Shown piece by piece: positions 1 through 22,080 of a stretch of 64,000 bases of DNA. Position numbers and translations under genes: made by a program. How positions within the stretch are numbered: position 1 is the first letter of the stretch; every line of letters starts with the position of its first letter. The DNA comes from Cliona cf. orientalis (lineage: Eukaryota; Porifera; Demospongiae; Clionaida; Clionaidae), in NCBI GenBank assembly GCA_963930775.1, contig OZ005692.1, positions 2,342,135 through 2,406,134 of the forward strand, read 5' to 3'. The notes under the pieces are model-generated. The model saw only the letters and a list, made by a program, of their open reading frames with translations. It was not told the origin of the DNA and did no database searches.

Positions 1-82
1 TCCTGGAAATCACTTCTGAAAACAGTTAGCAGAGTGGACCAACCCCTGTTTGAGAAACTCGCTAGAGAGCATCAAGCTAAAG
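1..82 (+). other. First visible exon: end of a death-fold domain
   Basis: Positions 1-82 read openly in frame 1 (begins SWKSLLKTVS, ends KLAREHQAK plus one nt) and end at a GTGGGT donor. The SW-x-x-L-L ... LFEKLAREH pattern resembles the last helices of Death-family domains found at the N-terminus of NLRs. The single leftover nucleotide G is completed by AT at the start of the exon at 10591, which gives Asp. The rest of the domain is off-window, so the exact death-fold subtype cannot be told. Confidence 0.55.
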
Positions 83-3000
83 GTGGGTGTACAGCGACGC
101 ACAATGTTAACATACAGTTGGTACAACACAATGCACAACATACAGTTGGTATAGAATCGGCTTCCGTGCAGGTGTTGTACATGTATATACAGTAGCGGTC
201 AATAAAAATTAACGTTCCGTTGCGTCCGACAATCGTACCAATGGGCATACTGATTAGTCTTCACACCATTCTCATAAATGTTATCGCAAGCTCGCTTCCG
301 TTTTCTATCTCACAGCACGGCCCGCGCTGTTATTGAAATAAACGACCACGCCTACCCTACCGTTTGACGTTCAACGTTTGTTCACGTTCAGTTCTCTACG
401 CAACTGAGACGTGTGAAAAGATGGTTTTTTCAACGTACAAGAAGCAGCGAATTCTCTTTTTTGCTTTGAGAGGTCTGAAGAGTCCTGCTATAGCAAAAGA
501 ACTACAAAAGGAAGGATTGAAGTGTTTGAGGATCGATATTTACAAGTTTTTGAAATGACTGGTTCAATCCGAAGACGAGTAGGCTCTGGATGTCCATCAA
601 AGGTTACAGCAGAAATCAAAGAGATAGTTGAAAGACAAATGAGAACTGACGACGAAACTACTGCATACCAGCTTCATCACCTCCTGACGGACAAGGGCTA
701 CACCATCTCCCTTCGCACAATACTTCATTGTAGGACTGCTCTGGGATGGATATTTCACGGTAGCGTGTACTGCCAGCTAATACGAGAAGCTAACAAGGCC
801 AAGCGACTTGCTTGGGCCCAAGAACACCTCGATGATTCCTTCGAGGACGTCATCTGGACCGATGAGTGTACAGTGCAGATGGAGAGTTATCGAAGATTCA
901 CGCACAGGAAGCTTAGTGAAGCTCCTCGTCCAAAGCCAAGGTACATTTGTAAAAAATAATAAGTATATTTAATGTCACAATCATGGGATAATGTGGTGAT
1001 CATCTATTAACAGTACATGCTCACAAAACATAGAGACGTAGTTTATGCACAAACAGTATCCTGCCTGGGCAAAATTACCCATGAGTACCGTGCGCATGCG
1101 CGGATGGAAGCGGTTGCAGAGGCCACACCCCTCATAGCAACTAACTGTACGTGTGCAACGGCGATGTTCTTGCTCTGCTCGAATGTTGCTACCAGACTAC
1201 TGATAGGTGTGATAAACAACAGGCAACAGACCTCGCCTCTCACTTCGCTCGAGGCTTGGTGACTATCGCCGGTGCACGGCACTTTCGCACCAATTGTTCG
1301 ACAATGCATCTCTAGCTAGCTGTACGTAGCTACGGCCCGAGGCACTCGACTTGGTGCACACAGCCCTACAGTTTTGACCAATCCTGAGCCTTGTAGTGAA
1401 GACTTTCTCATAACAACTGGGCGCATCCAAGACGCGTATCCATGCCCTCATGTAATGACATGGAGTGTTTGATACCTTTTTCAGATGAACCACATGTGCA
1501 GCTGTTTGGTTGCACTGACTATCATAGCAGGAAAAGAGCACCACTTCAAGTCGGCCGTCGCCATCTGTAGAATAGGTAAGGGGTCGTCAGATCAAGTCAT
1601 CACAGTATAGTGGCCACCTATGATATAAATGATCAGTGGCTGCAGTAGACAGGGGGCTGCTTTAAAGCTAGGGAGGTAACTTTTTCTGAGCATGCTGAGC
1701 CCATAATAATAATAATATTATAGTAATTGAAGGGTTGAGAACCATAGTGGGCTAACCCCAAATTAAATGTGGGGAATTATCTAAAGAGCCCAAAAATGGA
1801 CTAAAAACCATACATTGTACTCTACCAAGTTATTGAAATTTTCAGAAATGTGAATTTTCTGCAGCTCATGAGACACATTTTGAACATATCTTCGAGATTG
1901 GGGGCTAATTCAACATTTGTGGGTTAGCCCCACTATGGTTCTCAGCTCATGCATATCAGCCCCTTGTATATAATATTAAAAGAACTGGAGATAATAATTA
2001 CTATTATTATGAAAACTTGTTTCCTCTGAGCATGCTGAGCCCATAATAATAATTATAGCTCATGCATATCAGCCCCTTGTATAATAATAATTATTAAAGA
2101 CAAGTATATGTTTAATCTCACAATCATGAGATAATGTGGCTAGCATGCATGATCATGTATTTAATAACAGTACATGCTCACAAACATAGCCCCATTAGTA
2201 CAGTGCACATGCGCAGAGGGAAACGGTTGCAGAGGCCACACCCCTCCAAGTAAGTGTGCAATGGCGACGTTCTCGCTCTGCTCGAACGTTGTTACCGGAC
2301 TACTGACAGGTATGACAAAGAACAGACCTTGCCTCTCGCTTCGCTCGAGGCTCTGTGGCTAGCGCCAGCGCCTGCTTAGCAAGCCGGCCTCTCGAAACGC
2401 GCGGCGCTTTCGCGCCGATCGTTCGATCAACAAAATGCGTCTCTAGCTGTAGCTATGGCCCAAGGCATTAAGGCCACTCTTCTTTGTGCACGCGGCCCTA
2501 CAGTTCTGACCAATCCTGTGTGGTGGCCGAGAGTGTCACTTTTTCGTGTACGGTTCCGCCTCCTGAATAGGAATTCGGGTCCAATTCCGGCTCCGAAATA
2601 GGACTGCGGGTCCGGTTCCGGCTCCGAAATACTACAGCGGTTCCGTTTCCGGCTCCGAAATCAGAACACGGATCCGTTCCCGGCTCCGAATATTACAGCG
2701 GTTCCGTTTCCGGCTCCAAAATCAGAACACGGATCCATTCCCAGCTCCGAAATAAGACAACGGTCCCGGTTCCGGCTCCGGCTCCGGCTCCGAAATCAGA
2801 ACACAGATCCGTTCCCTACATAGGTTTACGGTTCCGGAATGGTAACACGGATTCTGCTCTCTAAAGAGTACGTACAGACATCGTCCTTGTTTCATTGATG
2901 CCCCATCCCAGACAGCATAACATCTACAATTGCAAATCAGCACTACAGTTAGTTAGGTTGTCAACGCTGTGAGCATGGGTGGTATAGGTATTGGTACAGT

Positions 3001-4029
3001 CCCGTTTCCGAATATGTGCCGTTAGCGAGTCAGTGACTATATTATTTCACCTGTCATGCAAGGGCCAAATAGTCGCTATTGTAAAATACTGCTTGAAGCA
3101 ATGAAGGGAGCCTGCATGCATGAGCTTATCTCACTAATTTCTACTGTTCTTTTCTGACAGTATTGTTAGCGATTCCGGACGATCGACCTGTGGCAATAAA
3201 AGCAGCCATAACTTGGAAACAGATTTAGCTATGAACAGGAAACACAAACCATGAGTTAGCTGAGTGAATGGCCTTTCTCCTGAACCTTGAATCAAGCGAA
3301 TCGTGAATCAAGCGAATCGGTTGACCACACACTTGGCGATTTTGATTTTTAGCTCTATGGAAATTTGTATGCAAAAATCTATTTTAGTGCGTAACTCGAA
3401 CAAGCTTTATTCTTTCAACAGGAAACACCCAGCACTGAATAGGCCTCGTCGAGAGGAAGCTATCGACACCTTAACCGTATGAATTGCTATCGCTGCCACT
3501 TTGCGATATCAAGCCGAAAAATTGGGCGTCCGGAATCGCTAGTATTGTGTGCTCTTATATCATATTAAAATTATCAGCTATGGTAGAGGGATCGCACTTG
3601 GACGTATATACTGGTAGCATGATTGCGCGCCACACCCCCCAATCCAAGGGATTGAAGGGTGTGGCTCAACACGCATGCTCATAGCGTTCAGTTCAGGTAC
3701 GATTTAGGCTACTCCTGATTAGACTAATCATTAGTTATTTCCACCCGCGTCCTTTCCACAATTCCTAGATTATAGTGTATTAGTATAGATCTACCCGCTT
3801 TATCTCATTATCTAACAGTAGCTTTGGCATGCGTCGTTAGCACGTAGAGTGATAATGGCAACGAACTACCCACCCGCATGCCCCATGCAGGCTTTTTGAT
3901 GAAAGAGGAAAGAAAGAATCATAAATGACATTATTATTGGAGTTGCCTTAACTATAGCACAGATACTATGCTGTCCTGGACTGAAACAGGACCGAAAACT
4001 ATTTCGGGACCGTATCCGTGTTCTTATTT

Positions 4030-4068
<39 letters not shown>

Positions 4069-7000
4069 ACCCGCATTCCCATTCGGGAGCCGGAACCGGA
4101 CCCGAATCCCTAGTCAGGAGCCGGAACCGGATCCGTGTTCTTATTTCGGACCCGGAACCGCATTTGTATTTCGGAGCCGGGACCGTACATGAAAAACTGA
4201 CGCTCTCGGCCACCATAATCCTGAGCCTTGTAGTGCGGACTTTCTCTCCGCCCGCGCCGCGCGTTAATAGCAACCGGGCGCTTCCAAGACGCGTATCCAT
4301 GCCCTCATGTAATGACACGGACTATATAAGAAAATTGTCGCTCTGAAAAATATTTTTTGTTGTATATATATAATTACGTCCAGAGTCCCAATCAACAAAT
4401 CGCTTCGGCCGACCGATGAGGTAATTGTGATGAAATGATGATGAAATTGGGGTGAAGACTGCTTCAAATGTTTAGCGCGTATGAAAGGTTGTTGGGACCC
4501 AGAATTTGAATCTAGCGAAAAAGAGATCGTGGACTATCCGATGATACTATTATGGCGTTTCTCTCAGTTCACTTTCTCTAGCGAGCTCGCTTTCAGGGCA
4601 GGGGGATTTCCCTATTCAGTCGAGCACATGGCAGGTGAAGGTCAACCGGCTCAAGCCGCGCGCCCCAATATTGTACGCGTATACGGAGCATGCGCAGTTT
4701 GTCAATGTGTCCTAGTTCGAATTTATGGCGGCGTATTCATGAGGGACTCTGGACATAGTCTCTAAGTTTTTCATTACTTGCCCAGTAGAAATTTACTTTT
4801 TGTGGTTATTAGGTAATGATAACGTAATCTATGAGGTAATTGCCAGAAAACTCAGGGCCTACGTGGAGCCTTTCTGAGACTTGAAAATTGGTATATATCA
4901 TAGGCTCCAACCGTCCCTGAATATCCGGGACAGTCCCGGATTTTTACTAACTGTCCCGCGTCCCGAAAGGCTCTACTAAAATAGTATTATTGGGTGTGGT
5001 ATGGGTGGAGTTTTAATTAATGATGGGCGTATCTAGTGGGTGTGGTCTATGTCCCTAGAGTTGTTCAGGAAAAGTTGGAGCCTATGATATATGTAGAGTA
5101 TCTGATGCATGTATCCAGCGAATACATTACAAGCTGAGCGCCACTTTCTCTGCGAAGTACCGCCGGCCGAACTTCACGCGTTCTCTTGGCTGACATAATC
5201 CCGTGGATAAATAAAGCTAGCCTTGTGCTATATATAGCACGCACGCTGTGTGCCATGCATGCCGCGACTATCCTGATGTTCAGAAGCTGTCGAGTTCGTC
5301 TCCTGTGATTGAAAATTGTCAGTGTCGAGGTCGAGAGTTGGCCGCGGTCGACTCTCAGACTCCATCTCTGTGATTGAGGCGCCAGTATCAATGTGTATAC
5401 GCACTATATTGACGACCTTTTACCATATAAACCATTATGCATGCAGCTACTGGGCAAGTGGTCAAGTTTTCATAATATAATCAAGTCAGTACTACATTGT
5501 AGCTGTTATTGTACATGTACATTGTATCTTTGCATAGGCCTAAGCACCCAACTAAGGTCCACGTTTGGGAAGAGATTAGTAAGACGGGATATGGGGTGAA
5601 CAGGAGTGTGTATATTTGAAGGGATAATGAAAAAGGAACTGTTTGTAAGCATCTTGGATGGGACTCTGCTCCCCTTCATTGAGAATGTGTATCCAGAAGG
5701 TCACAAATTCATGATGGACAACGATCCTAAACATACTTCAGGCTATGCTGCTGACTGGATGAGAGAGAATGGTGTCAATAATATTATTGGTGGAAGAACC
5801 CGGCCGAGTCCCCTGACCTCAATCCAATTGAGAACCTGTGGCATAAGCTGAAGGAATATGTAAGGAGAGAAATCCTGAAGCCAAGATCAAAGGATGAGCT
5901 AATTCAAGGAATTGTCGAGTTTTTGGGAACAGTGGACACTGCCAAGTGCTTGAAGTACATGCCACCTCACTAAAGTCATTCCTAAAGTAATAGAGTTATA
6001 AGGAGCAGCCACAGGTTACTAGTATTATTATATTATGTGTGTATCAATCAAACTACATGTATTATCCCATAACAATTTAACCTCATTATTTTAAACAGGT
6101 GATGATAAAACACTTTAGCCTCATTATTTTAAACAGGTGATGATAAAACAATCTTAATGTGCATGGTAATACCGTAGAATCCCGCGATTACGCCCCCACT
6201 CGCGCATAAGCCCCCCCCCTCCATTTTTAGCTCAAGTTCCTGCATAGGTACTTTTGTCTCGCGTATAAGCCCCCCCCCCCCCCCCCCCCGACTGTAAAAT
6301 GGAGCCCATAAATCAACAAAAACAGTAGCTACAGCTAGCAAACTAGCTATTTGCATCATATTTTGCCTTAGGCCAAATAAAATTGAATATTAGTTTTTCA
6401 TCCCCGCCCGCCTCTAATTTTTCCTCCGCCTGACCACGTTTTAATTCATGAATATCATTAAAATTATCACTAAAAAATGCACAAGGCATTACATCATAGA
6501 CGCGCTACTTTTTTAATGAAATTCATGATGACATTTAATGATATTCATGACAAAAAATAAAATAAAAAGCCACCCTCCCGCCTGGGGAAATTCCTGAACA
6601 TAGGATGAGAAACTAATAATCAATTTTGCTTGGCCTTACTTTGTAGTTTTTATCGAGTTTTGCCCACCAAATAGCCAGAGAAAGTACAGAGATTGCGCGC
6701 CCACATGGCATTCGACAATCGGTAATGGTCGTCACACTGAAATGTAAGGATCCCGCGTATAAGCCCCCTCCCCACTTTTGCCCAATCCTAGCATGCACAA
6801 AGGGGGGGGGGGGGGGCGTAATCGCGGGATTCTACGGTATATACTACATCTGATTTAATGTGCACGGTAGTTTATGTGATGCTATACACTGCATGTACAC
6901 GTAACAGATTTTTGCTACAAGTACTTTCTTGAGCTAGACCTTAGCCTCTTGCACGCTTGTCCAATTGACTCTTCAGCACACTTCCACTGCTCTTCAAATT

Positions 7001-10000
7001 CGTATGGGGACTTCCAGTACTGGGGGAAGAGTGAAAGGATCTTACTCTTTAACTCATTCATCTCACGCTCAGGAAGCCGTGGAAGGTCTAGTTCTCCAGC
7101 CACAGTACATTGGACCATGACGGCCTCCCCAAAGTATGCTTCCTTGGCAAGCTTCTGTGCCAACGTTGGCAACTTGCTCTCGCAAAGAAGTTTGGGATTT
7201 TTTCCAATGGTAAGGGTGGCTGGGTGGGGGTCTTCTTGCTCTTCTTTCTCCGATAAGCCACAATGTCACCCATGCTTGAAGGTTGTAGCTGGCGGAATGG
7301 AGGGCGGCTGGGTTGATTTTGATCTTGGATAGATGGAGGCAATGGCTGCGGTGAAGAATGTGACTGAGCTGGTGGTACATGTCCTGGTGACGGGTTCACT
7401 TGTGGTACATGTCCTGATAGTGGGCGTGATGGTGGTAAACTTTCAGCTGGAAGCATTGGTAGTGGATGTTCTTGATGAGTATGGTGTGCCGGTCCACAAT
7501 CGGGATGTGCTTGTGGTCGACACCCTGGTTGAGGAGAGGGGTATACTGGGTGTGGTTGTGCTGCTGGTGGAAGCACAGGACACCGCACGGGTGAACTTCC
7601 AGGCACCGGAGGTGGATGAGCTGGTGGAGGATATGAATACTGGTGGCTGATCGAAGGAATAATCCTGTTCATCATTGAAACTGTAGCAGGATTGATTGTT
7701 CTCTAGCTTGACTAGCCTAGTCAAAACTTTATCTTGCTTTTGTAGAATTGATCTTTGTATCTCCAGCATGTGTACATGTCCTTCCTCCAACACAGTTACC
7801 CGGTCTAATAGTTCTTGTACTTCCATCTCTAGAGTCAGAGAGTCAACAGCTTCATGTGGTGGAGTAGGCTTAGTTGGCGACACAGAGATGCGGTACTTAA
7901 CACCAGCTGAAGACTGTGGCCCAGTTGGCTTTGGTGGTAAACATGCTTATGGTTGACTGTTGTCTGTAACTGGCTTTGGTGGTGAACTGCTATTGGGTGC
8001 CTGTGGTTGACTGTTCTCTGCATCATGAGCCACATTCTGGATAATCTTGCCTGAGAAGATCAACATAAAGGAAGTTAATGTCCTATTGTACACTACTTAT
8101 GTGCATGTACATGTACATGTAGGGTGTGCACTGACCTTCAGACTTCTGCTTCTTTTTTTGCCCCTTTACAGCAGAGCTGGTCTTACTCTCTTTAGAGCTG
8201 TATGACATTTACACAATTTTATCAGACACTATGATGTTATGCACAAATGGTGTACATGTACATGCATGTATTTTGTACATGTACGCATGTAACTACAGGT
8301 TATTGCAATGGTTACTGACCTTCTGTAACAAAGCCACGCGGTCTATCGATGCGGCAAGCAGGCAGATGGTAACTTTAGCTGACTTGGACTCACTTCTTAT
8401 TCAAAAAAACTCTCTCCCAATACATATTATGCATTTACACCTTATATACAAAATTAAGTATGATGTGGCACAAAATACTGTATATACTTCAGCAGTTTTC
8501 TGAGACATGACCAAGTACAAATAATAAGTGATACCTAGGACCTAGTACCTTAAATCACAAGTCAAAGTATAAGTGACCTAATACCTAATAAAGGATTGCA
8601 CAACAAACATATAAACAAGCAGCAAATGTCCGTTTATGGTAATCTTCCACACCTTCATCCTTCTTTTTTTCTGGGAGGCTTTCCTTCTTCCACTGTTTCT
8701 CCTCTTGGTCTCTTTTGAGCTGCATGATGGAAAGAATGGAGTTAGTACAACTAAGGAGAGAGGGGGGATAGAGAGGGGGAGGGGGGTAGAGAGAGAGAGA
8801 GAGGGAGAGAGAGGGGAGGGGGTTAGAGAGAGAGAGAGAGAGAGACCTTTTTCTTGCTTGTTTTTGTTTGATCACTTTCACACTGGCTCTTGGTGCATCT
8901 GAATCTTCAGCTGCCAATAGGTAAGAGCAGTTACATATATGTACATGCATGCATTGTGTACATATACATATGGATAGTACATGTACATATACCATGAACT
9001 CTGGTTATTAAGTGCACCCCGCTATTAAGCGCATGCACATTATTTATTAAGCGCATGCTCTCTTCTTGTCACAAGCTATTGTTTATTAAGCGCATGCACT
9101 TAATAGGCGTGGTGTTCTACGAACCTGACCTTGACCGGCTGGAAAGTGTGTGGACTGTCCAGATATCTTTGGAGAAATGATGGCCATGTCATGCAAGAAG
9201 ATTGTGTTTCAGATAAATCTCCAGCACTTGTCGTCTTGAGAGGCAGCTATAAACGCTAAAGCGCTCGATCAATCGAGCCAGCTAGCGCTAACATGAGCGG
9301 GCCTTGCATCTGTCACGTGCACAAACGTTTGTGGGCGTGGTTATGTGCCATATAAGCGCATATCCTTTATTAAGCGCATACTGTCGTTCCGTTTACCGCT
9401 ATAAGCGCATGCTTTTATTAACCAGAGTATACGATACGTGTGCATGCATAAACGTAGTATACATACACATGTACAGTAGTGTACATAATACGTACAGTGG
9501 TCTTGAGTTGTTTGTGAATGGGACTCTTCAGCTTCATCAGCACTTTCTAATTCTTTCCATCGTAGCTCTATCTCTGCTTTTATTCCAACAGCAGTTATAG
9601 TTCCTGAATAGAACTTTCCACCTTGCTTCACCTTAGCAATCGCTCCCACAATGGCTTCCTTGGGCTTGACAAGTTTGGATTCTAGCACCTCGCTATAGCA
9701 CTTCTTATCAGCCCAATACCGCAGACAGTGACGCTCTGGGGTGGGGTAGAAATCAATTCATGCCACGCCTACTATGATAATATCGCTTAAACTATAGTAC
9801 AGCTAATCGTTTTTAAGCCAAAATCTGCTGAATAAAACTAATGTACTTCATAATAGCACTTACTTTTTTGTGCCGTAGATCTTTGAGTTCCCTTCAAATA
9901 GCCATGACCGCGGCGATCAAGAAGCCCGTATACTGATTGGAGTCCACCGACTTCGAGTGTTGGCGTGGAGCTGGCTGCAATCTTGGTAGTTGTAGATCGA

Positions 10001-13000
10001 GAACTTCAGCTTGGCAGCCTTCGATATCGATGATTTACTGATCGTTTTAACCAACTGTGTCTTTTATGAACGTGCAAACGTCTCAACATGTGTCAAACGA
10101 TGACAACCTTTGCATCCAACGCCCTGTACCGTATATTATCTGCACGCGCACACACGTTCTCTTTCCGTTTTTTTAGATTGCTCGTTCCATTGCACTATCG
10201 TAGAACGGAAAATGATACGTTAACTTTTTATAGACCGCTACTGTAATCTGCCACTATACAAGTACATGTGTGTATATCAAATTACTCCCACCATATGTTC
10301 ACATTCCATTCTCTGGTGGACTCAATGGCCCTTGTTACAACATGTAGGGAAGGATATTATACTGCATGGATAGTAGAATTAATTACTAGCAGAAAACCGT
10401 AACGAATCCTCTTAAGTATATCTTATATTGCTTTCATATACATTGCATTTCCTGTTGTACTCGGCTAAAATTCGCAGACTTAGAGAAGATAAGCAAATTG
10501 GATGTTCAGTGTTATTAATGTGAAGCATCACATACATGTAGTACAACATGCTTTAATATTGTGCATGTGCATGTACTCTTTTACCATTAGATGACAAATT
10601 GGCCCCTGTGAGTGGACTGGCTGTGGAAAAGCCGGAGGATACAGCCTCTAATGCAGGTGCTAGATGTGATGCAAACAGTGCTATCAGCTCATCTCTGATA
10701 ACTGATGTAAGGCACAGTTAATTATGGTTAAGTACTCATCTGAATACCGGTATTAATTTTTTTAGAGTACTCAGTTACTCATAGCAGGCAAACGAGGGGG
10801 AGAAAAGTCAGAGGATACTGTTTCTAATGGTCATACTGGCTATGAAACCAGCAGTGCCGTCAGCGCATCAAGCTCATCCCAGATCACCAAGGTAATTATT
10901 GGTCAAGTATACTGCTTTCAATGATGAATTTCGTTAATGTTACAAACAATAATTATTATTAAAATTGGTACTTAGACGATATAAAATTGCACACCAGCTC
11001 ACTCACCTAACCCTTCCCTCCCTCCTCCCCCCCATACATTAATTATTATACATACACGTACACTTGGTGTAAACAGCAAGTTGCAATGGACATTGAAATT
11101 CCAGACCACATCCTCTCCCAAATCAGAAACAAGTACAGGAACATAAAACACGCTTACAAAAAGCAGTGTCCATGCCAGTTAAGGAACATAGCCAATTTAG
11201 AATTAGTCGAAAGTCAGCAGAATTTGTCCAGTCAATCCAGTAATGAAAGGGGCATCACTGGAAAATCGATCCGCCTTTCTTACAGTAGCCTTTTCAAGGG
11301 AGACCAGGATAGAAAGGAGGGTGGTAACATAAGGATTCTTATCGTAGGCCAAGCTGGCATTGGCAAAACTATTCTTTGTGCTTCGATCGCTGAGGACTGG
11401 GCAAATGGGAAGCTCTTTCAGAAATTTCTTATGGTATTTCTCCTTCCACTCAACCAGAAGGGTGTCACCTCAGCTCAAAGTCTTCAAGAGCTTTTCAAAA
11501 ATCTTGAATTTGATGGAGAAGTGTGCTCTACTGTAGCAATATACTTGATGGCTAACAAGAAAGAAAATATTCTTATGATTGCCGATGGATGGGATGAGCT
11601 TTCAGAATCCAGTAGCTCGAAAGAATCCTTCTTGTATCGCCTTCTCTTTGGTGGCCTTGTCCCCAGTTCATCTTTGACGATAGTAGTGACGTCTAAATCT
11701 GTTCCAACCACACAACAGTCCATCAGCCGATTCATTACAGTTAAAGGATTTAGTGAGGAAACAACTAAGTCCTATATCCAATGCAAATTTAGCAGCAATC
11801 CAGAGAAACTCAGCTCCATCATGACACAGTTAGAGAGTAGCCCCCTACTCGGAAGTGTATGCAGTGTGCCTATTAATATCTCTATGATATGTAGCTATTT
11901 TCAGTCATGTGATGACACACTTCCCAGTACTATGCCAGAGTTGTACGAGAAGCTTGCTTGGAACCTTGCTCAATTGAAAATTAATAGTACTAAAGGGTAT
12001 GAAAATATATTGATTCATAAATTATCAAATTATCAAGACCTCCCTAATGAATTACAACAGTCATGGTCGCATATGTGTCAGTTAGCTTTCGAAAAATGCC
12101 AAGCTGATTTTTCCCAAGCAATCACCTCCACTTATCTGTCAACAGAGTTGGAAACGTTTGGTCTGCTTAAGCCTGCAGCTGTTGGGAGCGACGAAGTGAT
12201 GTTTTCCTTTCTCTGTCCTGCTTTTAGATATTATCTTGCTGTTTCACATCTCACAACACAGCTCCAAAGTGAACAGTTAGAGGTGATAAAGAGCATGCAT
12301 CACATTAATCCCATGTTCTGTAGATTCTACTTGAGTGTGAGAAATCCAAGCTCTGACATTGTATCAGAAGTTGTTCAAAAGCTGCACAATTGCTGCAAAG
12401 ACATGTGCCTTCTTTCATTTGAATCTAGAAATGAAATTGTCGATCGAGAGGTAGCTAAATCACTGCGTGCTTCAGGTTCAACGATCATGCTTCATGCTAA
12501 GAATGCTTATGAGTGTGTGGCTATGGTGCACTTGCTGGAGAAGATAGAACAGCCAAGCAGTGTTGAGATCAACTTTAAAGATTGTAAGTTAAAAGCGAGG
12601 CAAATTCCAAAGTTAGCTAGTGTACTTGGCGATCGATCCAAGGTGATTCAAGTGAAGGGACTTGATCTTAGCGATAATGGGCTCAGTGATGCGATAATAG
12701 CTGATTTCTTCACAAGAGCTTCATCTGCCGTTGGTTTGTTGGAAAAATTGTTTCTTCGTAGCTGTGATATAGGAGAAGTAGGTCTCCGAGCAATTATTGA
12801 TGCATTAGCTAACTCTTCTTGTAAGAGTCTCATCCAGCTAGACCTCTCCTTTAACTCTCTATCGGTAGCATCTTTAGAGAGCTTTCAGAAACATATAGAC
12901 AAAGATGGTGTGAAAAAAATGGAAATCTTAATCTTGAAAGGATCACTTGCAGAAGATATTGACGTGAATTTCTTGAAATGCTTTGCCACATCTCTTTCAA

Positions 13001-16000
13001 CAAAGTGCCAACATCTACGGCGACTTGATCTTTCCGGTAACAAATTAGGTGCATGCAATGATCCAGAATTCAGTGCTATAGTGTCTCAGCTCACTGCTAG
13101 CCTTGGTACTAACTTTGATCTACAATTGGATGACATGTCTGAAGTGGATAAGAACTTTCTGACTATAATGGAAGAATCAATAAGGACCAAAGGAACTATC
13201 AATCACACTATTGCTCATGGAGTGATTGTTGGTCCTGGAAGATCAGGAAAGAATACTCTATTAAAACGTTTGACAGGAGAAGGACCACCAGATCCCAGTG
13301 AAGTATCACCAAGCACTGGAGTACTGGAGAATGTAGTTAAAGTGGAAGTGAAGAAGCTGTGTGCAGTAGCAAGTGATAAATGTAATCTGAAGTGGCGGAA
13401 GTTAAAGTATGATGAAGAGGCACTTGAGCTAATGATGACAACTGCCAAAAATTATTCACATTCAAGTGACGTACCACGACCAGTCACCATCAAGTATATT
13501 TATCTAAAGAAATCAGAATCAGTGGAAGACCTACCACAGCCTTCCAAAACAAAATTGGATCAAGCATCAAAACAAGACACACCTAAAGCAGACAAACCTC
13601 AGAAATCTGAAAGTACTACCAGTGATGATACAGATACATGTACTTTTGAAAAAGAGAATAAGCATATAACGGTCTACCGTTCTGATGTGGCACCAGTAGA
13701 TGTCTTCAAGAAGGCAGTTAAGTTACGACGCATGGATGCACTTCGTGAGCATCTAGAATCGTCATGGTCTCTCTACCTCACCAACACGGGAGGACAGATT
13801 GAGTTTCAGGAACATCTCCCTCTTCTAGTTTGTGGTCCTTCCATATTTTTTGTCACATTTCCACTTCATCATGATCTATACAAGCCATATGAAGTACAAT
13901 ATGAGTATCCTGATGGCTCAGTAGAGAAGTATTCATCACCTTCTTCGCTAATAGAAGAAATTCTCCAAACGCTTGCAACAATTTACACACTAGACTTTGT
14001 CAGTGTTCAAATTCGTAATGAAGAGGTCACTCTAAAGCCTACAGTTTTCATAATTGGAACGCATAAAGATTGCTTGAAGTCTGAGACAGAAGAGATAGCC
14101 CAGATTGATGATAAAATCCGAATGTATGTCGAGCAAACTTCTCTCTATCATCAAGGTTCAATTCAGTTTGCATCAAATTTTGATACTAGTAGTGAAAGTC
14201 GCTTAATTTTTACTGTGAATAATCTTTGCAAAGATGATGGTGATTTTCAAAATATACGATATGCCGTGCAGCAAACTGTAGAAGAGAAGTGTCATAAAGA
14301 GTTTACAGTGCAGTGTCCTTCCTCATGGCTAATCTTCAGCTTAATTCTCCGCGAAAAACATAAATCAAGTCGAGTGTTGAGGCTCGAGGACTGCTTCAAG
14401 ATTGCCCAAGAATGTGGAATATCAAGCCAAGAAGAATTAACCACAGCTCTCACTTTCATCCACTCCAGACTAGGGCTTGTCAGATACTTTGACGATAAAG
14501 AGCTCAATTCACTTGTAGTGATAGATCCACAGATTCTGTTTGATAAGATCACAGACTTAATTAAAGAGACGTTTGTTGGTAAGAATGCAAATGAAAATGA
14601 GATCAAAGAGTTTCGTCAGAAGGGTATAATTTCTCTGGCAGTTGTGAAAAGAATCAGTGAGAGATCCAGTGAAGAAGTTCAGCTACCGTTTACGTGGCTG
14701 ACAAAGCTTCTAAATCATCGTCGACTAGCTGCTTTATTCAAGGATCAGTATGGAGAGAAAATTTTCTTCCCATCAGCGCTTTGCCATGTTTCAAAGGCTC
14801 CAGATCCCTTAGTAAAAGCAACACCTCCCAATACCCCACCAAAATCGTTGATTGCATTTAAAACTGGTTTTTGTCCCAGAGGCATAGCTGGAGCTCTAAT
14901 TAAGTGCCTGATGACCAATGAAATGAATTCAAGAAAGGAGTGGTATCTCCTTCCACACAAAATATTCAGAAATCAAGTTTCTTTCAATATAGGGGCTTAT
15001 GATGTTACTCTCAAAATCCTACCCACCCACTTCGAAATTGCTTTGGATCCTGAGGAAGATAGTTCTGCATGTGCAGATTCTGATGAAAGTTCAGAATCTG
15101 AAACTGAACTTATAGGAAATCTTGCCTACAAGGAAGTACATACACAGATCGACAAATGTATGAAGATTGTGACCAAACTATACAAGAAATGTGAATATTT
15201 TTGGACCTTTTATTGCACACTGCCTGATTGTAAACTCCACCCACATCCTGCTGTGATTGCTTCAAGTCAACCTCTCAAATTACGATGCAAAATTTTTCAT
15301 AAAAGTACTCGTCCACCAAAAGGCTATAAGATATGGAACATCTATAAAAGAGGTATATATCTATATGCATGATTTATGATTTAGGACTTTTTGAACTATC
15401 ATACGTACTTGCTCTGATTATCCGAACGGCCAAAAATAATTATTAATATTGCCATTCGGTGTTTAATAGAAAGTAAATAAATTTGGCCAATGGTTTATTC
15501 GAGTGTAAATAGAACGGATCCGGTGCAAATGGAGAAAGCACTATTATAGCGACGAAGAAACAGCAGTCGATGTCCAGCTCTCGAGTTCTCAGTATCGCTG
15601 TGCTCTCAGGAGCAATCATAAAATGATCGCCATCTGTGTCTGTTACCTTTCTGCTCTTATATGCTGTCCAAGATGTGGTAGCCACACTCTTCGATGAACG
15701 TAGAAGAGTTGTCTCGAGCTCCTGCCATGCTGTACCGTGTGGCCATTCGGTTGATTTAGAGTGGATGAGAAAACTTGAAATTCAAGATGTTCGACGAATT
15801 AGGAAGGAAATAAATTACTTAAACTTGCCATTTGGGCTATTAGAATGTTCGAATAATTAGAGCGAGTACGGTAATACAGGTCTGAATCAGCTGGATGTTG
15901 AGGTTGAAGAGAGCCACCTTGGTAAAGTAGCTGATTCAATGACTGAGTGGGAAGGTCCCATTGCTGACAAGCTCAAACTGAAACCAGGCGATGTCGCAAA

Positions 16001-19000
16001 TATTAAGACAGCATACCCAAGAGAACTGAATTTACAAACGTGAGTTTTCCTGGGAAGGAGTATACTCATGGATTGATAGTACCATAGTGTCCCGGATAAG
16101 CTCCCACGGCCACTTAAATGTAATTCACAATGTTGGCCTGCATAGGCGCTTATCTGGGATATATTATATGAATTCCACACATTTTAGGCACCTGAACACA
16201 TTTGCATTGACCCCAATAAAACACAGTGCATGGGTGCTTACCCAGGAGTGGGCGCTTGCCAGAGACACTATCCATGGTAATAATCCTTGCTACCGTATTT
16301 TCTCGCTATTAGGCGAATGTGCTTATATCTCCACAGGAAGAAAACCTGTGCTTAATAACAAAGTGCGCCTAACAGCGAGATGCACCTAGCAAAAAATAGC
16401 TGCATCAAGAACGCATGTGCATTCACGGTATCATTTAAGGGGGCGTGGCCAATCGATCGATCGCACTATCGTTCACGTTGCTGCATTCTGCTCAGGTCGA
16501 AGTGGCGTTCGTTGCTGGAAGAGCCTGAGAATCGACAGTAGTCATCGTAATTTCGACTAACTTTAAAAGGTTGGAGCCCTTAGCAAGCTAGCAAGCGTGC
16601 AGATATCGAGGTCAATGGTCACATAATATCAGTATGCACTTATATGCGAAATGCGCCTAATAACGAGTGCTTAGGCCAACAAAATAGCATGCGCTTAATA
16701 ACGAATATGCGCTTATAAGCGAAATGCGCCTAATAACGAAATACGGTATCTAAATTAATAGGAGAAAAGCATTGTATACCTGGAAAACAAGGAATGGTTC
16801 CAAGGCAACCTATGCCAAGTTGATAAAGATCTTTGAGCAAGCTGGCTACAAAAGCTATGGTGATGAAGTTAGAAGGATTGCTCATATTAGCAATAGTGAC
16901 ACAGATGATTCCAGCGGCAGTGGAGAGGAGTACCCTAAAATAGAGCAACCCCAAACATACCCAGATTACAAACCACATGCGCTACCTCAAGTTCCACAAC
17001 CAATGACATTGTCCGAGTCAGCTGAAGTGTATGTCATGGTAGAAGAGGAAGGTAAGAACTGCAATGGACAGATGGTACAGACTATTTTATAGTAGCTACT
17101 TAATAAAACTATATTATATTACCATAATATAGTGGGAAACTTTCAAGGGAGAAAACTTTCGCAGATCTGTAGGAAGGGAGTGGAAAATGTTTGCAGAATG
17201 TTAAATAGATTGCATAGCATACCTAAAATTTCGTGGAGAAAACTTTTTTAGGTGGCTGTAAAAATTTAATTGCAAAATTCGTGAAGGTTTTCTCCCTCGA
17301 AAGTTTCCCGCTATACCTGCAGTACCTTATTTAAACATACTTGTAGGATCCTTCATAACTGTAGAAATATTTGCCTATGCATGAGTTATTGCTTGATAGC
17401 AGTTCATATTAATATGACACTATTGAACCTATTGGATTCCCAGCATAATTATATAGAAATCTCCTAAACAGTGTCTAACTGATATATATGCTAACCCAAG
17501 TGTATCGTACAGTGTCTGCCATAATTATTAAACTTTAGCCATGGGATCACTTAGCTAGATATGGTTGAGAAGCTGTATCCTGTCTAAATGCGGTTAATAT
17601 TCACAGGAGATGCAAGTGAAGTTCGCAGTGAGGATGTACTCAAATCACAAAATATGTCCTTTGTGCCACAGCTCACCCATACCGAATCAGGAAATCACGA
17701 TCATCTTAATAAAGAACAGCCATCCAATATACCCAAGGTATAATAATTATGTTGGTGGTAATTGTGGCCATGGTAGGGTAATTGTAAATATAATAATAAT
17801 AATAATATAGAAGAAGGAGAACCCTCTGCCTTGGCCCTCACACGACAACCAACAAATAAATATACCACTTCCGATTGTGAGTCGTCGCTCAGAACCCCTC
17901 ACATCCCAGCATCACAAACAGCAACAACAACAGCCGGCCCTCCATAGCGCCAATGCTGGAAGTGGTGGCTTGTCAATTAATCCCAGGGACCGTCTGAACA
18001 CCATCAATACACGACCACTACCGAGAGTGCCAGATGGGAGCTATGACACCAATGATGTAAGCATGGTGTAATGATACCTATGATGTAGCATGATGTGACC
18101 TTGCACATGTGTAAGTACAATCATGTTTTGTGGTATTCAATTCACAATTATTAGAATAATAATGATATTATAGTTGTAACAAATGCCAGTGGAGTAGGAA
18201 GCAATCGCGTGTTGCAGAGGCCACTGATACAAGTCGTGGGTGTGGCTTTGATTACTGAATTTTTTGACCACAACTATTCTGTTGTAGAGGTCGTACTTTA
18301 CACAGGAAAAAATCTTCACAACACAACTGTTGCAGATTCCTTGTAATTTGTTGTGAATTAGGTCTAATCACAATACTTTCACAACATCATGGTACGACAA
18401 AGATTGTACCGCTTGCAATGGTTGTGTTTTCGCCTAAATGTTGGGTCGTTGCAAAAGCATTGTGTTATTAAACACAACGGTTGTGAACCTGTTGTGCAAC
18501 GGTTGTGAAATTAGGTATAAACTACTAATAACCATTAATAATGATTCATTAACTACCCTAATGTTGTGCTTTTGTCGTAATTTGATGCATTTTGGAATTA
18601 CAACCGTTGTGAAGAGTTTACAACGTTCCCAAAATGATTGTGAATTAAGAAATGCAACAGTTGTGTTGTGGAGATTTTTTCCTGTGTTAGTAATGTAAAC
18701 CACACTTTTACGAAGAAAGTCTGCATGATATATGATGAAAATTGGAGAAAACAGGGTTTTGTATCAAGCCTGATTATTGGGATGAGGGGGGGGGGGGCAG
18801 TGGCCTCCCCTGGCCCCCCTGGTTCCTACTCTACTGAAATGCAGCAATGTAGTTGGAGGTCCATTATTTCAATTAGAGTCCTCTCAGTTCACTTGTAGAC
18901 CTCTTGGAGGTGTAGATCTATTATTGGGCTACCAAGGACAAAGAAAGATGCACAGTTGAACAGTAGCCTAGTCCCCAGAGACCCTGTCCAATGGTCTCTA

Positions 19001-20327
19001 CGCTTTTTAAAATATCCTTAGACCCTTAGTAGCATCCTTACTTAATTCGCTCGGGATGCTACAGCCCTGGGCCTTTTGATCTCTTAGAACATGTCGAGAC
19101 ATTGGACTCGTTCTCTAACTATTCACAGGAAAAAATCTTCACAACACAACTGTTGCAGATTCCTTGTAATTTGTTGTGAATTAGGTCTAATCACAATACT
19201 TTCACAACATCAAGGTACGACAAAGATTGTACTGCTTGCAACGGTTGTGTTTTAGCCTAAATGTTGGGTCGTTGCAAAAGCATCGTGTTATTAAACACAA
19301 CGGTTGTGAACCTGTTGTGCAACGGTTGTGAAATTAGGTATAAACTACTAATAACCATTAAATAATGATTCATTAACTACCCTAATGTTGTGCTTTCGTC
19401 GTATTTTGATGCATTTTGGAATTACAACCGTTGTGAAGAGTTTACAACATTCCCAAAATGATTGTGAATTAAGTAATGCAACAGTTGTGTTGTGGAGTTT
19501 TTTCCTGTGATTATTATATAGAAAATGTACTTATAAGTGTACATGCAGTTTGCTCAATTATTTACACTTTTTGATTATTATGACATTGGTGTAGGAATTA
19601 CCATTAATTACTGTTACGATGTTAAATGTTGATCCTAATCTACCGCATTTCGACCAGAGTACCTGGATGAACCCAAGCATAACGTGAGTGCAACAAAATG
19701 GAGTTGATTTAACCCCTTTTAGTATCTATGTATTTTGATTGAAACTCTATTGTTTCTCTCTTGTAGGCGAGAAGACTCAAGAGGTATTTTAACGGGACGC
19801 CTGAATGGTACCTTCCTAATGCGACAGAAAGGCCCTACTGATGAAATACCACTAACAGCACCAGTTCACTCATACACCATTGATCTAGTGTAAGCAGAGA
19901 GACGAGAGAATAGAGAAAGAGAGAGAGTGTGTGTACATGTGAGAGAGAATACGAGTCACACAACCTTAAGATTATGGTCACTGCAGTAGCCTAATTTAAA
20001 TACATTGAAGTTGGCTTTTACATGATAGTTTAATAGCTATGTGCTATAATAGGCTTAGATTTGCTTCTCTGCTTTTAAGCTTGTGAGCTATAGCTAATTC
20101 TCTCTTTTTTCTTCTATATCTGCAGTGACCAGGGCAAGTTTAAACGCATCCCCGTGTTCCGAGACCGGAGAGGTGGCTATGGGTACGCCCCGCCTTACGA
20201 ATTTGCCTCACTCCTCTCTCTTGTTCTCTACTACGCCACGCATACAATGAAGAAGCACAGCCCAGACTTAAAGGCAACTCTCCAGTTCCCAGCCTTTATC
20301 TTTCCTAAACGTCATCACAGACAATAA
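1..20327 (+). CDS. Death-fold/NACHT/LRR/Roc-COR/Death/SH2 receptor-like gene (5' incomplete)
   Basis: Spliced gene model read by eye. Exons: 1-82, 10591-10706, 10766-10891, 11077-15352, 15880-16039, 16762-17051, 17607-17737, 17811-18056, 19595-19683, 19767-19889, 20126-20327. Every intron is GT-AG, every phase matches across the junction, and the sum (5841 nt) is 1946 codons plus stop. Domain order: end of a death-fold domain, NACHT (P-loop GQAGIGKT, Walker B LMIADGWDEL), leucine-rich repeats, Roc-like GTPase (GPGRSGKN, TGGQ, GTHKD), COR-like region, Death domain split by an intron, Ser/Pro/Gln-rich linker, C-terminal SH2 (GTFLMR). NLRs are cytosolic sensors; Roc-COR modules are GTP switches; SH2 domains bind phosphotyrosine. 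Joining them into one sensor is inference from exon phase. The true start lies upstream of the window. The alternative is two or three neighbouring genes, made less likely by unbroken phase and absence of internal start or polyA signals at the joins. Confidence 0.72.
960..1560. repeat. Dispersed repeat family, copy 1
   Basis: This stretch (TTTAATGTCACAATCATG..., AACAGTACATGCTCA..., CATGCCCTCATGTAATGACA) recurs in diverged form at about 2095-2518 continuing at 4217-4370, at 22690-22830, and at 46005-46500. It contains short antiparallel ORFs with no recognisable domain. It sits inside the transposase intron. Confidence 0.6.
1735..1944. repeat. Short inverted repeat with duplicated flanks
   Basis: GAGAACCATAGTGGGCTAAC near 1737 pairs with GTTAGCCCCACTATGGTTCTC near 1923-1944, making a hairpin-type element of about 210 bp. 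Flanking words such as GCATGCTGAGCCCATAATAA occur at 1690 and again at 2030, so a local duplication is also present. Confidence 0.5.
2556..2835. repeat. GGTTCCGGCTCCGAAAT minisatellite, left arm
   Basis: Diverged tandem units of roughly 20-50 bp built on GGTTCCGGCTCCGAAAT, alternating with AGAACACGGATCCG. It lies just inside the left inverted end of the 2519-4216 element. ORFs through it are Pro/Glu/Gly repeats with no sign of selection as protein. Confidence 0.7.
3985..4195. repeat. GGAGCCGGA minisatellite, right arm (inverted relative to left arm)
   Basis: Same motif as the left arm but on the opposite strand (ATTTCGGAGCCGGAGCC..., with five or more GGAGCC hexamers). The two arms could fold into a long imperfect stem about 1.1 kb apart. 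Confidence 0.7.
4371..5430 (-). repeat. Dispersed repeat, inverted relative of 28676-29550
   Basis: The part 4371-4785 starts ACGTCCAGAGTCCC and ends GGGACTCTGGACATAGTC, the same unit that forms the tandem array at 29104-30965. The part 4800-5430 matches 28676-29100 in reverse complement (for example GCCGGCCGAACTTCACGCG, GACGACCTTT). It is broken by the MITE at 4892-5091. Confidence 0.65.
4892..5091. mobile_element. MITE, 200 bp
   Basis: Inverted ends TATATCATAGGCTCCAAC (about 4894) and GTTGGAGCCTATGATATA (about 5073). Interior has tandem CCGGGACAG/CCCGGA words. No coding capacity. Confidence 0.7.
6170..6839. mobile_element. MITE, about 670 bp
   Basis: Ends TACCGTAGAATCCCGCGATT (6170) and AATCGCGGGATTCTACGGTA (ending 6839) are perfect inverted repeats, followed inward by C-runs and G-runs (GCCCCCCC). 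It is nested in the Tc1-like element. A 35-bp tandem duplication (CATTATTTTAAACAGGTG) lies just before it at about 6083-6150. Confidence 0.75.
6915..9735 (-). CDS. BEN-domain accessory gene carried by the Tc1-like element, probably decayed
   Basis: Minus-strand multi-exon gene. Exon 9735-9496 (RHCLRYWADKKCY ... GGKFYSGTITAVG) joins in phase to 8910-8847 (SEDSDAPRASVKVIKQKQARK), then short Lys/Arg-rich exons near 8719-8650 and 8190-8130. A region 8050-7690 carries coiled-coil-like sequence (MEVQELLDRVTVLEEGHVHM), then a Pro-rich stretch, and the last part 7172-6915 is a BEN-type domain (LAQKLAKEAYFGE, LFPQYWKSPYEFE, ESIGQACKRLR). BEN domains bind DNA or chromatin proteins. An in-frame TAA near 7950 and frame changes near 7660 and 7180 suggest decay, though small introns could explain some of these. 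A possible first exon lies near 9880-9980, just inside the right end of the transposon. Its coding direction is convergent with the transposase. Confidence 0.55.
8998..9428. mobile_element. MITE, about 430 bp, in a BEN-gene intron
   Basis: Ends ACTCTGGTTATTAAG (8998) and TTTTATTAACCAGAGT (ending 9428) are inverted. Inside, TTATTAAGCGCATGC is repeated several times in both orientations. Confidence 0.7.
11077..15352 (+). other. Giant exon: NACHT, LRR, Roc-like GTPase and COR-like region
   Basis: A single 4276-nt exon. Residue numbers here count from the ATG at 11086. NACHT P-loop at about 87-95 and Walker B at about 162-172, followed by the helical NACHT-associated region. Leucine-rich repeats at about 515-690 (LDLSDNGLSD, LDLSFNSLSV, LDLSGNKLG). 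A second NTPase starts near 712 with VGPGRSGKNTLL, has TNTGGQIEFQE near 898 (switch II, as in Roc domains) and GTHKD near 992 (base recognition). A COR-like helical region follows to about 1290, then a Ser/Asp/Glu-rich stretch. The P-loop residue normally Ser/Thr is Asn, so GTP hydrolysis or Mg binding may be altered. The ORF runs to a stop at 15372, but a donor at 15353 fits the downstream exon phase. Confidence 0.85.
16080..16279. mobile_element. MITE, 200 bp, in the Death-domain intron
   Basis: Imperfect inverted ends TACCATAGTGTCCCGGATAAG and CTTGCCAGAGACACTATCCATGGTA. Same end motif (TACC-TAGTGTCCC) as the copies at 49122-49566 and 60583-60762. Confidence 0.6.
16292..16747. mobile_element. 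MITE, about 455 bp, in the Death-domain intron
   Basis: Ends ACCGTATTTTCTCGCTATTAG and CTAATAACGAAATACGGT are inverted. Interior repeats the words GCGCCTAATAACGA and GCGCTTATAAGCG. It ends 14 bp before the Death-domain exon at 16762. Confidence 0.7.
17130..17316. mobile_element. MITE, about 187 bp, in a receptor-gene intron
   Basis: Ends TAGTGGGAAACTTTCAAGG and CCTCGAAAGTTTCCCGCTA are inverted; GAGAAAACTTT repeats internally. Related copies lie at about 48026-48214 and 59498-59682. Confidence 0.65.
18301..18686. mobile_element. CACAGG-family MITE, copy 1
   Basis: 386 bp, CACAGGAAAAAATC ... TTTTTTCCTGTG, with a TTA duplication on both sides. Long subterminal inverted repeats (CACAACACAACTGTTGCA). 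It lies in the intron before the SH2 exons (18057-19594). Confidence 0.8.
19124..19509. mobile_element. CACAGG-family MITE, copy 2
   Basis: 386 bp, same orientation as copy 1 and in the same intron. ATT is duplicated on both sides. It ends 85 bp before the first SH2 exon. Confidence 0.8.
19595..20327 (+). other. Three terminal exons encoding a p85-type SH2 domain
   Basis: Exons 19595-19683, 19767-19889 and 20126-20327. Visible motifs are TREDSRGIL (helix A), GTFLMRQKG (strand B with the phosphotyrosine-binding Arg), HSYTIDLV, GGYGYAPPYEF, LLSLVLYY, and PDLKATLQFP just before the stop at 20325-20327. The YGYxxPY-F ... SLxxLVxxY ... DLxxTLxxP order and its location at the extreme C-terminus match the C-terminal SH2 of class IA PI3-kinase regulatory subunits. 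The first SH2 residue of the usual WF/WY is TW here. An AATAAA overlaps the stop codon. Confidence 0.72.
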
Positions 20328-20479: not shown

Positions 20480-20865
20480 CACAGGAAAAAATCTTCACAA
20501 CACAATTGTTGCAAATTCCTTGTAATTGGTTGTGAATTAGGTCTAATCACAATACTTTCACAACATCATGGTACGACAAAGATTGTACCGCTTGCAACGG
20601 TTGTGTTTTGGCCTAAATGTTGGGTCGTTGCAAAATCATTGTGTTATTAAACACAATGGTTGTGAACCTGTTGTGCAACGGTTGTGAAATTAGGTATAAA
20701 CTACTAATAACCATTAATAATGATTTATTAACTACCCTAATGTTGTACTTTTGTTGTAATTTGATGCATTTTGGAATTACAACCGTTGTGAAGAGTTTAC
20801 AACGTTCCCAAAATGATTGTGAATTAAGTAATGCAACAGTTGTGTTGTGGAGATTTTTTCCTGTG
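20480..20865. mobile_element. CACAGG-family MITE, copy 3
   Basis: 386 bp, 150 bp downstream of the receptor gene stop. GTA is duplicated on both sides. Confidence 0.8.
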
Positions 20866-21234: not shown

Positions 21235-21619
21235 CACAGGAAAAAATCTCCACAACACAACTGTTGCATTACTTAATTCACAATCATTTTGGGAACGTTG
21301 TAAACTCTTCACAACGGTTGTAATTCCAAATGCATCAAATTACAACAAAAGCACAACATTAGGGTAGTTAATGAATCATTATTAATGGTTATTAGTAGTT
21401 TATACCTAATTTCACAACCGTTGCACAACAGGTTCACAACTGTTGTGTTCAATAACACAATGCTTTTGCAACGACCCAACATTTAGGCTAAAACACAACC
21501 GTTGCAAGCGGTACAATCTTTGTCGTACCTTGATGTTGTGAAAGTATTGTGATTAGACCTAATTCACAACAAATTACAAGGAATCTGCAACAGTTGTGTT
21601 GTGAAGATTTTTTCCTGTG
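21235..21619. mobile_element. CACAGG-family MITE, copy 4 (inverted)
   Basis: 385 bp in the opposite orientation to the other four. ATA is duplicated on both sides. Confidence 0.8.
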
Positions 21620-21690: not shown

Positions 21691-22080
21691 CACAGGAAAA
21701 AATCTTCACAACACAATTGTTGCAGATTCCTTGTAATTTGTTGTGAATTGGGTCTAATCACAATACTTTCACAACATGGTACGACAAAGATTGTACCGTT
21801 TGCAACGGTTGTGTTTTGGCCTAAATGTTGGGTCGTTGCAAAAGCATTGTCAGTGTTATTAAACACAACGGTTGTGAACCTGTTGTGCAACAGTTGTGAA
21901 ATTAGGTATAAACTACTAATAACCATTAATAATGATTCATTAACTACCCTAATGTTGTACTTTTGTTGTAATTTGATGCATTTTGGAATTACAACTGTTG
22001 CGAAGAGTTTACAATGTATGTTCCCAAAATGATTGTGAATTAAGTAATGCAACAATTGTGTTGTGGAGATTTTTCCTATG
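21691..22080. mobile_element. CACAGG-family MITE, copy 5
   Basis: 390 bp, only 71 bp after copy 4, and the most diverged: its right end reads CCTATG and it carries small insertions such as CAGT in the middle. Flanked by ATAT on both sides. The long antisense ORF through it is a by-product of the repeat. Confidence 0.75.

Follow-up and report, generated by a model that had tools for sequence, protein, structure and literature searches.

A predicted NLR/ROCO gene with a p85-derived SH2 tail in the sponge Cliona cf. orientalis

We describe a predicted gene at the left end of a 64,000-nucleotide stretch of the Cliona cf. orientalis genome (contig OZ005692.1, C4:2342135-2406134; hereafter the window), whose product appears to combine a NACHT-LRR portion, a Roc-like module with COR, Death domains and a C-terminal SH2. 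The gene belongs to an expanded NLR family, and comparison with the rest of the genome (216.8 Mb in 149 contigs) suggests that its SH2 tail was captured from the sponge's own p85 gene. The component domains are abundant in this genome, with at least 104 profile matches to NACHT (103 of 490 candidates scored), at least 150 to COR-A (150 of 290), 111 to SH2 (126 of 126) and at least 150 to Death (150 of 1292).

Gene structure and domain organization

The eleven exons of the gene, when joined, give exactly 1947 codons including the stop codon, which is the only one and lies at the end. All internal exon boundaries from 10591 on are of the GT-AG type, a donor can also be read after position 82, and the phases match at every junction. 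The eleven-exon, phase-consistent model proposed in a first-pass annotation was thus reproduced exactly and is right almost to the base. That annotation also had the gene starting at window position 1, which does not hold, as the first exon encodes just the C-terminal end of a Death domain, the beginning of which is found upstream, contiguous and in frame. The features of the gene are as follows, all on the plus strand.

1..82, plus: 3' part of the N-terminal Death exon, which runs on upstream of the window (L029:3686-4000)
83..10590, plus: first intron in the window, inflated by comparison with intron lengths in paralogues; Tc/mariner-like piece at 417-959
10591..10706, plus: linker exon 1, 69-74% amino acid identity in three paralogues
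10766..10891, plus: linker exon 2, same order in paralogues
11077..15352, plus: core exon, open throughout, spanning NACHT, LRR, Roc-like module and COR (Pfam NACHT, LRR_6 and COR-A; family; dN/dS)
11335..11796, plus: NACHT domain, Walker A GQAGIGKT, Walker B IADGWDEL (Pfam, alignment)
13231..14070, plus: Roc-like module from G1 to G4 (GPGRSGKN, NTGGQ, GTHKD), Mg2+-ligand positions replaced (alignment of 18 copies)
14317..14658, plus: COR-A domain (Pfam 36.6-38.3 bits; genome match C4:2356451-2356792)
15880..16039, plus: C-terminal Death, exon 1 (Pfam; homologous stretches in 18 of 18 core loci)
16762..17051, plus: C-terminal Death, exon 2, plus linker (Pfam, gene model)
17607..17737, plus: linker exon common with paralogues L009, L010 and L017, GT donor at the matching place (alignment)
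17738..17810, plus: putative fusion intron, 73 bp, 5' end paralogue-like, p85-derived copy beginning at the 3' end (alignment)
17811..18056, plus: p85-derived exon, apparently 5'-truncated by the breakpoint, 76.5% DNA identity to the p85 locus L033
18057..19594, plus: intron that contains a short repeat element twice (repeat comparison)
19595..19683, plus: p85 C-terminal SH2 part, exon 1 (p85 comparison)
19767..19889, plus: p85 C-terminal SH2, exon 2, Arg of FLMRQK kept (p85 comparison)
20126..20327, plus: p85 C-terminal SH2, exon 3, with stop codon (p85 comparison)

The encoded order is Death–NACHT–LRR–(Roc-like)–COR–Death–SH2, with everything from NACHT through COR inside one 4.3-kb exon. 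Pfam searches with the whole product recover NACHT at 81.2 bits (cut-off 26.7), COR-A at 36.6 bits (cut-off 35.3), the C-terminal Death at 28.5 bits (cut-off 22.6; 32.8 bits for the product of its two exons) and, C-terminal to NACHT, LRR_6 at 26.6 bits (cut-off 23.4). The SH2 scores 20.4 bits in the whole product, 0.6 under the cut-off of 21, and 27.3 bits, 6.3 above it, when its own exons are searched alone. Among solved structures the NACHT is closest to NLRP3, and the best relatives of the SH2 are the p85 subunits (E 3.6e-22). Pfam and the motif order therefore support the succession of NACHT-LRR, Roc-COR, Death and p85-type SH2 that had been read from the sequence at first pass, with profile matches for NACHT, COR, Death and (above cut-off on its own exons) SH2. 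A death-fold had likewise been proposed at each side of the protein; the C-terminal one is well supported and the N-terminal one is present but borderline, at 22.5 bits against the cut-off of 22.6 (20.9, 21.7 and 19.0 bits in three paralogues).

An expanded family sharing the same core

A core query of 1424 residues finds at least 33 loci in the genome, the window included; this is a lower bound, with 33 of 916 candidates scored and the fetched copy L015 not among them. The match contains no stop codon at 28 of the 33 loci (some matches are partial), and the other 32 loci are 42-91% identical to the window core. Twenty loci were fetched first as core candidates and the 18 that carry the core were used in alignments; in all 18 the core occupies a long open exon (two open stretches in L020) with Death-domain stretches behind it. 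The remaining candidates, L026 and L028, were rejected as core loci and are LRR-Roc-COR-kinase proteins without NACHT. Such proteins, which resemble LRRK, occur among the COR-A matches of the genome, these two included.

The ratio of non-synonymous to synonymous substitution rates (dN/dS) between the window gene and five paralogues is 0.15-0.31 across NACHT, the link that follows it, LRR, Roc-like module and COR, with 0.18-0.20 for the LRR, 0.19-0.23 for the whole core exon and 0.34-0.41 for a short stretch ahead of NACHT. These values indicate that NACHT, LRR, Roc-like module and COR are alike under purifying selection and, because dN/dS is similarly low from NACHT through COR, that the core is evolving as one protein. 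Given the 28 stop-free loci and the low dN/dS, a chance origin of the core reading frame is excluded on these comparisons, and the predicted gene in the window is one member of an expanded NLR family whose C-terminal tail varies among members.

All three of the closest fetched paralogues (L009, L010 and L017) have the N-terminal Death exon and the two linker exons ahead of the core, in unchanged order, and their first intron is about 0.3-0.7 kb long versus 10.5 kb in the window. Because the paralogues hold these exons at such short distances, the first intron of the window gene is judged to be swollen, and the idea that it marks a gene boundary was rejected. It contains, on the plus strand at 417-959, a piece of a Tc/mariner-like transposase, with a helix-turn-helix match below the Pfam cut-off.

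Two nucleotide-switch modules

All 18 aligned copies retain the Walker A lysine in NACHT. In the Roc-like module, G1 reads GP(G/A)RSGK(N/D) and G3 NTGGQ, and G4 is GTHKD in 16 of the 18; the Ser/Thr that should follow the G1 lysine is replaced by Asn or Asp, and the Asp of G3 by Asn, in every copy. Both are Mg2+-ligand positions in small GTPases. The Roc assignment made at first pass is not borne out by Pfam, whose Roc model matches 0 of 18 copies at E<=0.1, COR-A being found in 18 of 18. A profile built from the 18 copies gives a weak match to structure 3dpu, at G1 and in COR (best E 0.009); this entry, listed as 'Rab family protein', we take to be the Chlorobium Roco. The order of G1, G3 and G4 with COR behind them nonetheless points to a Roc origin, and we infer that the Roc-derived module no longer cycles normally and is apparently locked. 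Two NTPase modules had been proposed, of which the NACHT with its Walker motifs stands and the second is better described as a degenerate Roc-like module that has lost both usual Mg2+ ligands. An AlphaFold model of the Roc-COR part is of middling quality (predicted local distance difference test, pLDDT, 60; predicted template modelling score, pTM, 0.62), and pattern-seeded scans of bacterial and archaeal genomes and viral contigs with this part confirmed no relative, although distant ones may be missed by such scans.

Origin of the SH2 tail from p85

When the SH2 tail is used as a genome query, the window and C15:6569124-6570581 are the only places with close matches. At the latter locus an N-terminal SH2 match at 6566783 stands ahead of the tail match, together with open reading frames (ORFs) that look coiled-coil-like by eye, and we read L033 (C15:6566783-6570581) as the p85 (PIK3R) gene of this genome. 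With introns included, L033 aligns at 75-76% DNA identity with the final four exons of the window gene. The copy seems to begin within a p85 exon (the start of that exon was placed by eye): the p85 frame continues upstream of this point, where the window has intronic sequence and a TATAG acceptor. No p85 start is included in the fragment, whose reading frame is open only from the acceptor onward. Immediately upstream, the exon at 17607-17737 and the GT donor at its end are common to the window, L009, L010 and L017. Because the linker exon and donor are shared with the paralogues and the copy appears to start within a p85 exon, the alignment places a piece of p85 DNA without the p85 start inside an NLR/ROCO gene, in one of its introns, with matching orientation and phase. 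An assembly artefact was considered as the source of the copy and rejected, since the copy differs from p85 by about 21% in its introns and contains repeat insertions.

The part captured is the p85 C-terminal SH2 alone, the N-terminal SH2 and the inter-SH2 region being absent from the window copy. In p85 it is the inter-SH2 region that holds p110. The p85-type SH2 claimed for the C-terminus is therefore well founded, both in its nearest solved structures and in being a DNA copy of the genome's p85 exons; the PI3K-like signalling suggested along with it is doubtful, because the inter-SH2 region was not captured.

The splice sites and frame of the tail are intact, and the captured exons have no frame-breaking indel before the last codons; relative to p85 there is a one-codon difference at the edge of the first SH2 exon, and the remainder of the SH2 is free of indels. 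The aligned introns, over 275 bases, have 10 gaps, of which 7 are not multiples of three. Half the intron rate would predict about 5 frame-breaking indels in 414 exon bases, and zero are seen (P about 0.005, a rough figure with one intron being repeat-rich); counting indels of any length gives P 5e-4, which is too strict given the one-codon difference in the first SH2 exon. The SH2 arginines, including the Arg of FLMRQK, are kept in the window copy, and we take these to be the phosphate-binding positions. Constraint on the captured tail is likely, though not proven.

Two further observations concern this part of the sequence. On C15, directly behind the p85 gene (L033:6894-7064), the last p85 SH2 exon occurs again in diverged form, this second copy perhaps being an alternative last exon. 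Around the SH2 exons of the window are five copies of a repeat element (about 0.4 kb by eye), with element starts at 18315-18362, 19138-19185, 20494-20541, 21558-21605 (minus strand) and 21705-21752; two of the five are inside the intron 18057-19594.

Tails and neighbouring genes behind other cores

Several other members of the family lead from Death into Src-type sequences. In L018-L022 the Death exons, linker exon, SH3 exon and start of the SH2 exon can be aligned, with GT and AG at the boundaries (phases by eye for L020), and an exon similar by eye to 17607-17737 lies ahead of the SH3 exon. The SH3 of L020 scores 61.4 bits with Pfam, and in L018, L019, L020 and L022 there is no start codon between the preceding in-frame stop and the SH2. 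Pfam identifies SH2 and kinase in L019, L020 and L022, and the kinase in L021, where the SH2 is in another frame; L018, as far as fetched, has SH3 and SH2 without a kinase. L013 was left out of this group, its kinase pieces looking like another type.

The DFG Asp is absent from all four Src-type kinase tails, which read ILK (L019), NLE (L020), NFE (L021) and VFK (L022), and L014, with SH2 and kinase, has apparently lost the VAIK Lys (by eye). Three Src-type SH2-kinase ORFs on C12, in comparison, have VAIK, HRD and DFG intact (3/3). For the same three pairs of loci, dN/dS is 0.55-0.68 in the Src-type tails vs 0.27-0.29 in the cores; it is 0.09 between two of the C12 Src-type genes.

A Pfam SH2 lies no more than 10 kb downstream of the core, on the same strand and before the next core, at 15 of the 33 loci, the divergent split SH2 of the window not being counted. 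When COR-A matches are used as anchors there are 10 downstream SH2 pairs vs 0.36 expected under uniform placement, a count inflated by tandem copies on C7; control pairs number 4 with SH2 upstream (3 of them in the C7 tandem array) and 1 on opposite strands.

Candidate tails of other kinds lie behind further cores. SH2 and protein tyrosine phosphatase (PTP) matches follow the cores at C4:7464133 and C4:7517456, the SH2 of the first being SHP2-like, and a Death domain with two PTP domains follows that at C17:1775846. HC(X)5R is present in all 4 PTPs behind cores; at WPD, 1 of the 4 keeps the motif, one has WPS and two have WPE. Both motifs are intact in an SHP2-like gene on C8. A Met of its own could start the SHP2-like exon behind the core, which may therefore belong to a neighbouring gene. 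Kinase ORFs behind L023 and L024 (C19) have HRD and DLG that look intact by eye, their fusion to the core being unproven, and the kinase behind L009 has intact-looking HRD and DFG (also by eye). A candidate fn3 tail is present behind L025 (C13), a Kelch domain behind L010, and two more Death-like stretches with three C2 domains behind L017, the closest paralogue (L017 and L031, C7:8720000-8736999). L011 has a repetitive glutamine-containing ORF behind the core and L012 an ORF without a Pfam match; in the stretches fetched for L015, L016 and L027 nothing recognisable lies behind the core. The L009 kinase, L010 Kelch and L017 C2 domains may be neighbouring genes, because tandem kinase and Kelch ORFs lie in the window itself.

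These window ORFs are on the minus strand, with kinases at 27306-27950, 37811-38404 and 56498-57157 and Kelch ORFs at 34225-35127 and 53461-54351. Between them, at 40272-43184 on the same strand, is a retroelement-like ORF pair of a phage-integrase-type integrase and a reverse transcriptase, presumably as in DIRS-like elements.

Interpretation

The reading that we favour, although we give it slightly less than an even chance, is that the window contains one gene, an NLR/ROCO hybrid with a captured p85 C-terminal SH2 tail, acting as an adaptor between tyrosine-kinase and death-domain signalling. The LRR would sense, and the NACHT, with its Walker motifs kept, would be an ATP-driven switch that oligomerises, by analogy with other NLRs. 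The Roc-like/COR module would hold the protein in a static dimer instead of cycling as a GTPase, and the Death domains would nucleate death-fold assembly and recruit death-fold partners. The SH2 would bring the assembly to tyrosine-phosphorylated proteins, probably at pYxxM, the motif bound by p85 SH2. A fusion of the SH2 to the rest is favoured because of the shared donor, the in-phase placement, the apparently truncated p85 exon and a frame kept while the introns became gapped, and because paralogues lead from Death into SH3-SH2 exons with kept splice sites.

Several points weigh against this reading. The joining of SH2 and NLR/ROCO in one gene is deduced from gene structure, and an in-frame ATG in the first SH2 exon could be used by a separate small gene. 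Compared with p85, in-frame length differences are present in the captured linker exon, and a short terminal gap shifts the stop codon. The dN/dS relative to p85 is 0.30 for the SH2 (bootstrap 0.16-0.56) and 0.51 for the captured linker exon (0.30-0.87); both values mix the two lineages and, because the ranges are wide, they do not prove selection on the window copy alone. When the second copy of p85's final exon is used to polarise changes in the last SH2 exon, 1 synonymous and 3 non-synonymous changes fall on the window branch and 3 sites stay ambiguous, numbers too small to decide. One copy of the p85-type tail was found besides p85 itself. Lastly, the N-terminal Death and linkers were not matched in the 3 kb upstream of the Src-tailed copies L020 and L022, such that this Death domain would, as far as shown, belong to the window's subgroup only.

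A second explanation, which we regard as a real but tentative possibility, keeps the single gene and makes its tail an integrated bait: a sensor in which an NLR chassis displays copies of host proteins from the phosphotyrosine network (p85 SH2, Src-type SH3-SH2-kinase, possibly SHP2 and receptor PTPs), so that pathogen proteins attacking these host nodes would meet the copy and set off NACHT/Death assembly, like integrated decoys in plant NLRs. Captured and original copies coexist in the genome, and for the Src-type tails the broken kinases (with the apparent Lys loss of L014) and the faster evolution than in the cores favour a bait, although fast evolution also fits relaxed constraint. Conversely, the window SH2 keeps its binding arginines, the PTPs their HC(X)5R, and the core LRR is conserved; the intact-looking kinases behind L023, L024 and L009 speak against all captured enzymes being dead. 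We know of no pathogen effector for the host animal, which also counts against this explanation. Its general form would be that animals too evolved NLRs with integrated decoys, one NACHT–LRR–pseudo-Roc–COR–Death chassis having multiplied and acquired, time and again, copies of the host's own phosphotyrosine writers, readers and perhaps erasers (Src-type, p85, SHP2-like, PTP), many of them disabled, as baits for pathogens that attack tyrosine signalling; this we regard as a similarly tentative possibility.

It is improbable, in our estimation, that the NLR/ROCO gene ends before the SH2 and that the p85 fragment is a dead remnant or a separate small SH2 gene. The single-gene model is a prediction from gene structure, an ATG precedes the SH2 (MLNVDPNLPHFDQ), reading on from exon 17811-18056 meets a stop at 18069-18071, and other genes do lie close to cores, as the kinase and Kelch ORFs on the other strand of the window illustrate. 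However, the donor before the junction is common to three paralogues, the phase matches throughout, the p85 exon appears truncated and without p85's upstream exons, the frame was kept while the introns gathered frame-breaking gaps, and Src-type exons with kept splice sites use the same tail position. Finally, a competitive brake, with the SH2 competing with p85 for pYxxM sites to damp PI3K signalling on NLR assembly and the death domains only oligomerising, would suit a p85 C-terminal SH2 lacking the inter-SH2 region (needed to hold p110) but leaves the Src-type tails on the same chassis and the retained Death domains unexplained, and is very unlikely.

If the single-gene reading is right, the family would be animal receptors that merge NACHT and Roc-COR switches, both used in innate immunity and cell death, one apparently live and the other apparently locked, with a C-terminal module that is swapped between components of the tyrosine-phosphorylation network. 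NLR activation would be tied to tyrosine signalling in an animal of an early-branching lineage, and whether animals use integrated decoys would become directly testable.

Comparison with known systems

In open-access titles and abstract openings, neither a NACHT-LRR with Roc-COR nor an NLR with SH2 or Src modules is described among the matches listed. The earlier suggestion of an undescribed architecture stands to that extent, although this is not a single odd gene, given its many core loci.

Sponge NLRs with an N-terminal Death were reportedly described by Yuen et al. in 2014. The window protein resembles animal NLRs of this kind (sponge NLRD; PMC12909245, as excerpted) in its Death–NACHT–LRR order (the Death being borderline by Pfam), large expansion and kept Walker motifs. 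The terms ROCO and SH2 do not occur in the main text of that Dysidea NLR paper (PMC12909245). Unlike sponge NLRD, the window protein has Roc-like–COR–Death and a signalling tail after the LRR.

ROCO proteins include LRRK1/2, DAPK1, MFHAS1 and bacterial Roco, and in DAPK1 a Death follows COR, as in the window protein. The window protein is similar to them in having LRR, then a P-loop module and a COR, with COR-A in every aligned copy, and differs in the NACHT in front, a Roc missed by Pfam and the replaced G1 and G3 Mg2+ ligands throughout the aligned family. The closest match among those listed is sea-anemone 'Novel Gene 3', a predicted protein with kinase, Roc/COR, SH3, Death and TIR (PMC5094078, in excerpt). 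Roc/COR, Death, SH3 and kinase appear to be combined in the window's family as well; unlike that family, 'Novel Gene 3' has TIR, and NACHT-LRR and SH2 are not mentioned in the excerpted text (PMC5094078).

With respect to the captured parts, p85 (PIK3R) shares its last four exons, introns included, with the window tail, which differs in lying behind an NLR with one SH2 rather than two, without the N-terminal SH2 and inter-SH2 region. The paralogue tails L019-L022 differ from canonical Src family kinases in lacking the DFG Asp (4/4). Plant NLRs with integrated decoys, such as RRS1-WRKY and RGA5-HMA (PMC7982415, in excerpt), have a piece of a host signalling protein built into an NLR, as the window gene would; unlike these, the window family has an animal NACHT chassis, captured parts from phosphotyrosine-network proteins and no known effector. 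Artificial DED-SH2 chimeric adaptors (Howard et al. 2003, as cited in the excerpted part of PMC2575513) redirect tyrosine-kinase signals to apoptosis. Like them, the window protein would join a death-fold to a phosphotyrosine reader, although as a natural and much larger protein.

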